64,000 nucleotides of DNA from Flavobacteriaceae bacterium. Its GTDB lineage: Bacteria; Bacteroidota; Bacteroidia; Flavobacteriales; Flavobacteriaceae. Location of the stretch: the NCBI GenBank assembly GCA_947446635.1, contig CANFHF010000001.1, forward strand, positions 62,001-126,000. The letters are read 5' to 3'. The position numbers and the translations under genes are program-made. Below, piece by piece: positions 3,767-57,619 of the stretch. The notes below the pieces were generated by a model, which did no database searches, was not told where the DNA came from, and saw only the letters and a list, made by a program, of their open reading frames with translations. Within the stretch, counting starts at the first letter, position 1, and each line of letters begins with the position of its first letter.

Positions 3767-4426
3767 TTATTCTTCTGTTTCTTCCGCTTCTTCGCTCTCT
3801 TCCGCCGATTCTTTTTCTTCAAAATCGAATTCAAACGGTTCAACAAGCATTTTTTCGGCAAGTATTTCAATCCTTTCTGTGAACACTTCCGAAAAAATAA
3901 TACGTTGGGTTTTGTTAATACTATTCGAAATGCGCATAATTTTGGTTTCATGACGCAGTTTCAAGATTGGATCGGCATCGTCAAGAATAAACATTTTCAA
4001 ACGATTGACATTATATCCAGCCGTAGTAAACATTTCACCTAGTTTATTTGGTGTGCCAATCAAAACGTCAACTCCTGTGGAAATATAATTTTTATCATAT
4101 TCCATATCCCCTTTATCATGAACGCCATACACTCGTAAATCAGTATATTTTCCGTATTTTTCGAAAAGTTCCTCCATTTCCAAAACCTTGGTTTTGTCTT
4201 CCACAATAATCAAAGCGCGAGGAGATTCCTCACCTTCTTCTTTCAATTGTTGAATAACATTCAAGACGATGGTCGTCGATTTACCAAAGCCTTTTGGCGC
4301 AATAATAATACAATCGGCACCGCTTTTTAAAGTAGAAAATGTTTCTTCTTGTAGCTCATTTGCTTCTGTTAAACCACTTTCTATAAGTGCTTGTTTCAGA
4401 TTTTCGTTTATTTTTTTTAGTTTCAT
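3767..4426 (-). CDS. DEAD-box helicase-like protein with only the first RecA domain
   Basis: Looks like the N-terminal half of a DEAD-box RNA helicase. Seen are the Q-motif region, Walker A APKGFGKSTT (about residue 43), a TPNKL motif Ib and motif II written DDAD (ILDDADPIL) instead of DEAD. Motif III is SEV rather than SAT. There is no second RecA domain: after about 200 residues it ends in a Glu-rich acidic tail (EEKESAEESEEAEETEE). The family's usual length is above 370 residues, yet there is no sign of a frameshift downstream, where DUF2007 follows after 20 bp. It may bind ATP or RNA without processive unwinding. Confidence 0.8.
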   Translation of the reverse strand: MKLKKINENLKQALIESGLTEANELQEETFSTLKSGADCIIIAPKGFGKSTTIVLNVIQQLKEEGEESPRALIIVEDKTKVLEMEELFEKYGKYTDLRVYGVHDKGDMEYDKNYISTGVDVLIGTPNKLGEMFTTAGYNVNRLKMFILDDADPILKLRHETKIMRISNSINKTQRIIFSEVFTERIEILAEKMLVEPFEFDFEEKESAEESEEAEETEE

Positions 4427-8086: not shown

Positions 8087-8680
8087 TTATTGCCCTATTA
8101 CAACTTTTGGAAAACGAATAATTTTGTCCCCTAATTTATATCCTTTTTCTATTACATCAACAATTTTTCCTTTCAACTTGGGGGCAGAGATTTGAGTTAT
8201 TGCTTCTGCAAAATCAGCGTTGAAAATATCTCCAGCTTTTATTTCCACTTCCTCTAAACCTTTTGAAACAAGAGTGTTTTTTAGCTTTTCTTGAATAAGC
8301 TCAACCCCTTGAATTAAAATATTGTCATCAGTTTTTTTGATTTCGGTTAATGCTCTGTCAAAATCGTCTAAAACTGGAAGTAAAGCCAGTAATACATCTT
8401 GATTTGCGGTTTTGAATAATTCAATCCGCTCTTTGGCTGTTCTTCGTTTGAAATTTTCAAATTCAGCAAATAAACGCAAAAACTTATCTTTTTCAGAGGC
8501 TAAATCTTGTGATAATTGCTCTTCCCTTGTTATTTCCTCTACTCGCTCTTCGATAGTTGCCTCCAATACATCGGAATCATTTTCTTTGTTTTCAATTGAG
8601 GATTGATCTACAATTTCGTCCTTAAGCGTTTTTTCTGTTGTCATTCTTATAGTATTTGTAAAAAAATTTTTAATCTTCAT
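8087..8680 (-). CDS. grpE: nucleotide exchange factor GrpE
   Basis: Exchanges ADP for ATP on DnaK. An acidic, disordered N-terminus is followed by a long dimerising helix (EEQLSQDLASEKDKFLRLFAEFENFKRRT) and the C-terminal beta domain ending in GYKLGDKIIRFPKVVIGQ, a well-conserved GrpE signature. Upstream of dnaJ in the same operon. The start is uncertain: Met 1 (8680) or the Met at 8644 (MTTEKTLKDE). Both lie downstream of a candidate TACTTTTG -7 box at 8703-8710. Confidence 0.95.
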   Translation of the reverse strand: MKIKNFFTNTIRMTTEKTLKDEIVDQSSIENKENDSDVLEATIEERVEEITREEQLSQDLASEKDKFLRLFAEFENFKRRTAKERIELFKTANQDVLLALLPVLDDFDRALTEIKKTDDNILIQGVELIQEKLKNTLVSKGLEEVEIKAGDIFNADFAEAITQISAPKLKGKIVDVIEKGYKLGDKIIRFPKVVIGQ

Positions 8681-55522: not shown

Positions 55523-55903
55523 TTACTTTCTAATAAACTTCAAATCTTTAAGCATTGCTTGAAACTTCTTCCCCGGTCTAAAAATCACCGAAGCACTCTT
55601 TCCTTTTTTTGGAGATACTGCCTCTGGAGTAGCACTTGCCGTTCCTTTTACACTAATTTGAAAAGCGCCTAAATGTCCTAGTCTTACTATTTTTCCGGCA
55701 TCTAATTCCTTTGAAACGGTAGCAACCAAGCTAATAATTACGGCATAACAATCGGATTGGGTTAAGGAAGATCCATAAGCAATTTGTTCGGAAAGCTCTT
55801 CTAAATCCACTTCCCCCGTTTTAGTGACTTTGGGATAATACAGCATAGAAGCGCTATGATTTGCGGGATTAGTTTTTCCAATAGGGGTGATAATAATGGC
55901 CAT
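55523..55903 (-). CDS. HU/IHF-like DNA-binding protein (Bacteroidota long type)
   Basis: A 126-residue HU-like histone. DCYAVIISLVATVSKELDAGKIVRLGHLGAFQISVKGTAS follows the HU pattern (helical dimerisation body, then the beta arm), and PGKKFQAMLKDLKFI ends the fold. It carries the long N-terminal ~30 residues typical of Bacteroidota HU-like proteins. A perfect minus-strand promoter lies at 55944-55973, with three TTACCGCGGTAA palindromes upstream. Confidence 0.88.
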   Translation of the reverse strand: MAIIITPIGKTNPANHSASMLYYPKVTKTGEVDLEELSEQIAYGSSLTQSDCYAVIISLVATVSKELDAGKIVRLGHLGAFQISVKGTASATPEAVSPKKGKSASVIFRPGKKFQAMLKDLKFIRK

Positions 55904-55943
55904 AGTTTTAGGAGGTCAAGAGGTTATTTTCTGCTCGTCAGTA

Positions 55944-55973
55944 CAAAGATACTCATTGGTTAGGACCAAGCAA
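55944..55973 (-). promoter_or_regulatory. promoter of the HU-like gene
   Basis: On the minus strand TTG (55971-55973), 19 bp and TATCTTTG (55944-55951) match the Bacteroidota consensus exactly, 41 bp upstream of the ATG at 55903. Confidence 0.8.
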
Positions 55974-55975
55974 CA

Positions 55976-56034
55976 AATTTACCGCGGTAAATTGTACAAG
56001 TTACCGCGGTAACTTAATTAACTTACCGCGGTAA
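55976..56034. promoter_or_regulatory. three TTACCGCGGTAA palindromes at 22-bp spacing (candidate operator array)
   Basis: AATTTACCGCGGTAAATT (55976-55993) and AAGTTACCGCGGTAACTT (55998-56015) are perfect 18-bp palindromes. TTACCGCGGTAA (56023-56034) is a third, with imperfect outer bases. Centres lie at 55984.5, 56006.5 and 56028.5, exactly 22 bp apart. The array begins 2 bp upstream of the -33 of the HU-like gene and lies in the 317-bp gap (55904-56220) shared with the divergent AraC gene. Confidence 0.85.
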
Positions 56035-56220
56035 AATAAATGTCTTGTCTTGGTGGAGTGAAAGATTGGTCTAGACAAATAGCAATAGTACCAAGGATTA
56101 GCTAATTATAGCAACTAGTATTCGTTTTATCCTCTATCTTTGGATACACTAATAATTACTTTCAATAGCTTTCTTTTTCCAAAAAATATTTTATTTTTGT
56201 AATTCATTAAAAACTATTAT

Positions 56221-57447
56221 TTGGTTTCAATAATTGCCTACATTTGTTTAACCGGCTTATTTTTGCCCTTGCTTATCCTGTATTTCAATAAGGGATACCG
56301 TACCGCAAACCGTTATTTGGCAGGGTTTCTATTTTTCGCTTCCTTGTACTTGCTGGAAAATTTCCAGTTTTTCTATGGAAAAAGCCTCTTCTGGGTTGCT
56401 TTTTTTACAAACAGCCACGCTTTTTTTTATTTAATCGGTCCTTTTGCTTTTTTCTATGTGAGAAGTATTTTGAGGGACAATAGCAAACTGAGCAAAACCG
56501 ATTATTTTCATTTCGCTCTTTTTGCCGTTTCCCTTATGGGGTATATTCCCTATTTTTTTTCGAGTTGGGATTACAAAATATCTATCGCTAAAAACATATC
56601 CAGTGAAAATTGGGATATGGCTTCTTTTCATCTGAACCAATTTATACCCCATAAAATCGACCAAGGATTAAATGTTTTGCAAACCTATTTCTATGCTATT
56701 AGTCTTTGGTATTTGCTGTGGCATCATAAAAAAGTGGCTAATAATCCAATCGTAACTACTACACAGTACAAACTGATTCGGAATTGGCTCTTTATTTTCA
56801 CTGGGCTTGTTACTATTATCACGCTTAATTTCACGGTTGCCATGGCTAATATGTGGTGCTATGATGATAAATCCATTTTCTTAAATCGCGCCAGTGACGC
56901 CTTGCTTTTGGCTTCTGTGATTTATATTGGAATGAACATGACGGTAATGTTTTTTCCTCATATTATGTATGGCTTGCCTATAGAAAATCAATCCCAACCC
57001 ATAAAAGATGCTATTCCATTAGATACTGTTCATATTAATGAAAAGTACTCGAATGTTACCGATTTTCCTTCCGAAAAAAAGAAAAAACCCGAATTTTTTT
57101 CTCCCGATTATATTGTCAATATAGAAGCGCTTTTTCAGCAAAGCATCCGGAAGCAAACGTATTTGCAACCCAACTGTAGTTTAAGTAAAATATCGGATGA
57201 AATAGGAATCCCGGCCCATCATTTGACCTATTATTTCAACAACATCAAAAAAGAATCCTTTTCTAACTGGCGCAATAAATTGCGAATAGAATATGCCTTG
57301 ATCATTCTGAATCAAAGAACTTCCGACCAATTAACCCTGGAGGCCATCGGATTAAAAGTTGGCTTTAAATCCAATTCTACTTTTATTCGCTCCTTTAAAA
57401 AAGTTGCCGGAAAAACACCGAGTGACTACCTGGAAAGTATTTACTAG
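56221..57447 (+). CDS. membrane-bound AraC family regulator
   Basis: A 408-residue regulator with about seven transmembrane helices (residues 1-260), as in the Bacteroidota membrane-AraC group, and a C-terminal AraC HTH (about 300-405): SLSKISDEIGIPAHHLTYYFNNIKKESFSNWRN and LEAIGLKVGFKSNSTFIRSFKKVAGKTPSDYL. No ATG is near; the track begins at TTG 56221, and the first in-frame Met is far inside. A TATCTTTG -7 box at 56135-56142 lies about 80 bp upstream. The ligand sensed by the membrane part is unknown. Confidence 0.85.
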   Translation: MVSIIAYICLTGLFLPLLILYFNKGYRTANRYLAGFLFFASLYLLENFQFFYGKSLFWVAFFTNSHAFFYLIGPFAFFYVRSILRDNSKLSKTDYFHFALFAVSLMGYIPYFFSSWDYKISIAKNISSENWDMASFHLNQFIPHKIDQGLNVLQTYFYAISLWYLLWHHKKVANNPIVTTTQYKLIRNWLFIFTGLVTIITLNFTVAMANMWCYDDKSIFLNRASDALLLASVIYIGMNMTVMFFPHIMYGLPIENQSQPIKDAIPLDTVHINEKYSNVTDFPSEKKKKPEFFSPDYIVNIEALFQQSIRKQTYLQPNCSLSKISDEIGIPAHHLTYYFNNIKKESFSNWRNKLRIEYALIILNQRTSDQLTLEAIGLKVGFKSNSTFIRSFKKVAGKTPSDYLESIY

Positions 57448-57501: not shown

Positions 57502-57619
57502 CGCAAAGTCTCCGACTTTGAGGTAGGGTCTTTCGGTTTTTAACCGATTTAGTTTTTTGCTATTTAATTTTTTTCAGTCAAAGACTGACATACATATCCT
57601 CAAAGTCGGAGACTTTGCG
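57502..57619. repeat. 22-bp perfect inverted repeat with nested hairpins
   Basis: CGCAAAGTCTCCGACTTTGAGG (57502-57523) and its exact reverse complement (57598-57619) flank 74 bp that contain two more hairpins: TCGGTT-TTT-AACCGA and CAGTC-AAA-GACTG. Each long arm is itself partly palindromic (CAAAGTC/GACTTTG). It lies in the 424-bp gap 57448-57871, in which no gene is supported. Confidence 0.85.

Follow-up and report, generated by a model that had tools for sequence, protein, structure and literature searches.

Our findings argue that an array of palindromes beside an HU-like gene of the HU-HIG family is a cis-acting control site of that gene, putatively bound by the HU-HIG protein itself, which would coat the array cooperatively and limit its own expression. 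We give this reading a probability of roughly 0.6. The array lies in a 64-kb stretch of Flavobacteriaceae DNA (the window), where the features that concern us are:

55523-55903, minus strand: HU-like gene, 126 aa, PF18291 HU-HIG (profile match, E 1.2e-23)
55915-55922, no strand: weak unit in register, GTCAAGAG (sequence and multi-locus register test)
55937-55944, no strand: flank unit in register, GTCAGTAC, immediately following the HU -7 box (sequence, register and phase tests)
55944-55951, minus strand: Bacteroidetes-type -7 box of the HU-like gene, TATCTTTG, array-phased (sequence and multi-locus phase test)
55959-55966, no strand: flank unit in register, GTTAGGAC (sequence and register test)
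55976-56034, no strand: array core, three TTACCGCGGTAA palindromes with dyads after 55984, 56006 and 56028
56047-56054, no strand: flank unit in register, GTCTTGGT (sequence and register test)
56069-56076, no strand: flank unit in register, GTCTAGAC, a perfect 8-bp palindrome (sequence and register test)
56221-57447, plus strand: AraC-type regulator gene with a membrane part, a neighbour whose membership in the array system is unsupported

The three core copies of TTACCGCGGTAA (55979-55990, 56001-56012 and 56023-56034) carry zero mismatches and are spaced 22 and 22 bp apart, with perfect palindromes of 18, 18 and 12 bp, exactly as an earlier inspection of the DNA letters (the sequence-only reading) had described them. 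The chance expectation for TTACCGCGGTAA with up to one mismatch is 0.14 copies in the window, three copies arose in 0 of 100 shuffles, and the array is the window's top spot for self-similarity at a lag of 22 bp (71.4, vs 43.1 for the runner-up). A chance origin is ruled out by the shuffles together with the genome-wide counts and reversed controls given below. An RNA element was also considered and rejected, as a search of window positions 50-64 kb gave no Rfam match. The sequence-only reading had placed the palindromes on one face of the DNA, which holds only approximately at ~2.1 turns per 22 bp, and it had taken the three units as the full array; they are its core, and more units lie on both sides.

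Setting out the sequence in rows of 22 bp aligned on the core dyads reveals further, imperfect palindromic units in the same register, with dyads to the left at 55918, 55940 and 55962 and to the right at 56050 and 56072. The array spans ~55911-56080 and includes the HU promoter. At every locus that has core units we mapped GTCNNGAC, allowing one mismatch, and 40 of 49 occurrences fall exactly in register (p ~3e-45). The units thus fall into two classes, a strong one in the core and a weaker one in the flanks that is of a common GTCNNGAC type, and the register continues into the HU promoter. The TAnnTTTG promoter box itself keeps its phase with the array register to within 1 bp in 20 of the 21 genes that could be tested, the sole exception being the window gene, where the script matched an upstream look-alike inside the array; by direct count, the window's -7 box (55944-55951) is in phase. 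Comparison of TTACC-type arrays across several species gives 95% likeness for the 12-bp cores against 58% for the intervening 10-bp spacers, the pattern that protein sites would be expected to produce.

This arrangement extends to other members of the family. We scored the upstream DNA of 105 HU-HIG genes for self-similarity at lag 22 with a threshold of z = 3; simple regular-expression motif labels overlooked many arrays, and the score combined with a reading of the units was used instead. The threshold was exceeded in 49 of the 105 regions at lag 22, in 0-3 of 105 at other lags (18-21, 23-25 and 33) and in 3 of 138 control regions upstream of other genes, these being counted by score. On the protein tree the 22-bp periodicity is bound to clades, being present in 18/18 genes of clade I (the window type and its relatives) and 28/34 of clade II (the KMVPK type), jointly 46/52, vs 2/51 of the remaining HU-HIG genes (Fisher 4.7e-20), a link between clade and motif that is partly inheritance, since related genes have upstream DNA of common descent. 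Outside the genus, HU-HIG genes are mostly without an array; 3 of 27 reached z22 > 4, and on quick reading these were not palindrome arrays. Period and promoter phase stay constant while the palindrome varies by clade. Genes of the window's subclade have TTACCGCGGTAA as their unit, other clade I genes have TGACCGCGGTCA, TGGCCGCGGCCA or TGACTGCAGTCA, and clade II genes have AGATGTACATCT or AT-rich variants, and TCCCCTAGGGGA; flank units are alike across all clades. Paralogues within the single genome G000 have distinct arrays as well (ACCGCGGT, CACC/GACC, ATGTACGGG and weaker ATATAT-rich ones). HU-HIG genes that lack the 22-bp array, such as those of clade III (L032, L033, L024 and others), frequently carry an inverted repeat of the type TTAGnCACTT...AAGTGnACTAA immediately behind the -7 box, which may be another kind of leader or operator.

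The whole 2.4-Mb Flavobacterium-type genome contains 10 exact copies of TTACCGCGGTAA, all in 22-bp arrays, and 0 copies of the reversed 12-mer. They fall into three arrays, on contigs C1 (the window), C14 (49210-49287; four units, one with one mismatch) and C57 (4887-4986; five units, one degenerate yet in register), and allowing one mismatch adds a single copy, C14:49254, also in register. The motif, for which the sequence-only reading had suggested such a search, is by genome counts and reversed controls not common at random. A survey that took a single genome per species, 85,462 species in all, turned up the exact two-copy array in three more MAGs. Two relatives retain the array, equally far from the start codon of the orthologous gene (84% protein identity in L017, 83% in G009), where the gene neighbourhood differs from that of the window; HU and array are placed after purB in L017 and after IMPDH in the window. 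The link between array and gene holds across species with variable gene context. Arrays of three ACCNNGGT units (ACCNNGGT arrays) occur in 8 of 400 genomes (reversed control, 0/400), with 6/16 among genomes with a clade I HU vs 2/384 among those without (p 4e-8); in G066 (93% complete) and G414 (65% complete) the ACCNNGGT array is present and a clade I HU was not detected. The longer register, the two further genomic arrays and the general rule over HU-HIG paralogues had all escaped the sequence-only reading.

The window gene belongs to HU-HIG by profile, matching PF18291 over residues 12-124 with 83.9 bits against a curated cut-off of 26.2. Pfam describes this family as HU fused to wHTH, Ig or Gly-rich parts, with a model that covers the HU part only, whereas the genes here are ~127-aa stand-alone and the window protein is a single domain without any of those fusions. 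The protein shows a weak sequence match to the solved HU 5eka (E 0.003), and AlphaFold, given 2 sequences, yielded a low-quality model (pLDDT 39.5). In 56 of 400 Flavobacterium genomes there are related genes at E <= 1e-12, indicating an accessory type; canonical HU gives a weak match to the same profile in nearly all genomes.

How might such a protein use the array? Proteins of the HU/IHF group form dimers with two-fold symmetry, and some of them are autoregulatory. We propose that an HU-HIG dimer sits on each palindrome with its two-fold axis at the dyad and that neighbouring dimers, two helical turns apart, bind cooperatively. A protein-DNA filament could then spread outward from the high-affinity TTACCGCGGTAA core units over the weaker GTCNNGAC units and cover the HU promoter, such that HU-HIG would limit its own expression, probably by autorepression. 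We infer HU-HIG as the binder, cooperativity between dimers, and a repressing instead of an activating effect. Paralogues in the other HU-HIG clades may act alike with different palindromes, each protein having its own address: clade-specific palindromes stand before related HU-HIG genes, and each protein may therefore recognise and control its own site. Several points count against this model, namely the orphan arrays described below, the ACCNNGGT arrays of G066 and G414 where a clade I HU was not detected, the shared descent of upstream regions, and the flank units, whose likeness in all clades a purely clade-specific reader leaves unexplained. In addition, HU proteins are usually weakly sequence-specific, which speaks against a specific operator.

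The chief rival is that the palindromes are operators of one or more unrelated dimeric regulators, with the HU-HIG genes merely their targets. An operator-like architecture requires just some dimer, and the GTCNNGAC flank unit common to all clades could be read by one shared protein. However, the core palindrome tracks the HU-HIG clade, and no other gene regularly adjoins the arrays. The core also differs among paralogues of one genome, and since each G000 paralogue has a different array, one common regulator could hardly read them all. We regard this rival as unlikely.

Some arrays lack an intact HU gene. Pseudogene pieces of HU lie beside intact arrays in L015, L018 and L019, and in L250 the array and promoter are followed by only the first HU codons, which run into another gene. 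G013 retains TTACCGCGGTAA arrays, with pseudogene pieces alone found of that HU type, and its dispersed ATGTAC arrays number at least 8, some of which share homology across 230-460 bp. An orphan array in G025 has the same sequence variants as that genome's HU array. Among the orphan arrays, some are clearly what remains of HU genes since lost, and others may be genuine targets at a distance. The persistence of arrays beside HU pseudogenes and a bare HU start, the homologous G013 arrays, and the different places that HU and array occupy in different species also favour a cassette able to move or duplicate, comprising the array with or without HU, or the relics of one, in which the palindromes would be recombination or transposition sites and HU cargo or helper. 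Against such a cassette, constant ends, terminal repeats and a recombinase gene were not found at the arrays, and no empty site could be shown for one orphan array whose trxB neighbour was followed in 59 genomes, the left neighbour not being conserved. The viral contig collection is without the exact two-copy array, and register and promoter phase fit regulation; we think a cassette distinctly improbable. A phage origin was likewise rejected, with no HU relative confirmed in the viral contigs and three distant HU matches among phage records (31-36% identity). Plasmids gave 7 HU matches, all below 60% identity.

On another reading, the array resembles parS or matS and serves a nucleoid protein as a docking site on the chromosome, the HU-linked copy being one of several. 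In its favour, the C14 and C57 arrays of the same genome adjoin what appear by eye to be both ends of an rRNA operon, with the contigs breaking there, and 5/8 of the dispersed G013 arrays lie between convergent genes. The arrays resemble the ParB-parS and MatP-matS systems in being palindromic sites for a DNA-organising protein, some of them away from its gene; unlike those systems, they are accessory, few in number and phased at a promoter. These differences, the accessory distribution of HU-HIG and the promoter phase at HU genes make the docking reading very unlikely.

That the array is an operator for the AraC protein, which the sequence-only reading had entertained in treating it as shared with the AraC gene, is scarcely credible: the divergent AraC gene does start ~190 bp away, but the phase relation is with the HU gene, most HU-linked arrays, including those of clade I and II genes, have no AraC neighbour, the AraC proteins beside arrays in G009 and L019 are different family members in another arrangement (49% identical mutually, 22-27% to the window AraC), and AraC sites are typically asymmetric direct repeats. 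What stands of that proposal is an operator-like array that belongs to the HU-like gene.

Both HU/IHF autoregulation and phased operator arrays are already known. A close precedent for our preferred reading, an HU-HIG protein acting on its own promoter, is E. coli ihfA/ihfB autoregulation by an HU-fold protein. IHF, unlike the arrays here, recognises a single asymmetric site, and we know of no 22-bp palindrome arrays or paralogue-specific codes in HU/IHF autoregulation, nor of any described DNA target for the HU-HIG family. Plasmid iterons offer a second likeness, being ~22-bp repeats two helical turns apart with a dedicated, nearby-encoded reader able to repress its own gene. The arrays described here differ in having no Rep protein and in their palindromic units with free spacers, and they sit on a contig of chromosomal size (206 kb), where the neighbours are IMPDH, HU-HIG and AraC and a replication initiator gene is absent. 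An HU-like paralogue family whose palindrome codes diverge on a constant 22-bp scaffold was not found in the literature, a weak negative given that the search covered open papers.

We tentatively raise a broader hypothesis, possible though doubtful at present, that the accessory HU paralogues of Flavobacterium are orthogonal, sequence-addressed nucleoprotein systems, with clade-own palindrome codes on a common 22-bp scaffold that would serve self-control and dispersed docking arrays. HU proteins are the textbook example of weakly specific DNA benders. If the hypothesis is true, a supposedly unspecific bending protein would have turned into several specific and self-addressed chromatin proteins. 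Paralogues that each have a phased array with a palindrome of its own offer natural matched protein-DNA pairs that could reveal the specificity rule of the HU fold and allow it to be tested. For the HU-HIG family, which is largely uncharacterised, the control-site reading in turn predicts a function as a self-addressed operator filament.

Several observations concern the surroundings of the arrays. A membrane AraC-type gene, an array and an HU-HIG gene or pseudogene occur in the same order in L019, L021, L015 and L018; this AraC subtype may therefore travel with the HU cassette. L018 also has two near-identical short open frames (1671-1919 and 4078-4326) that by eye resemble REP-associated transposase ends. 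In the window, the inverted repeat CCTCAAAGTCGGAGACTTTGCG (57502-57523 and 57598-57619) flanks ~75 bp downstream of the AraC gene; a near-identical copy (L005, ~8380-8500) neighbours the C14 array by the 5S rRNA gene, and the element looks like a dispersed repeat. The C14 array is further adjoined by a gene (L005:6224-7948) for a secreted protein with an N-terminal ubiquitin domain, Ig_7 repeats and a T9SS sorting tail; ubiquitin is unusual in a bacterium, and this protein may reflect horizontal transfer or a binning error.
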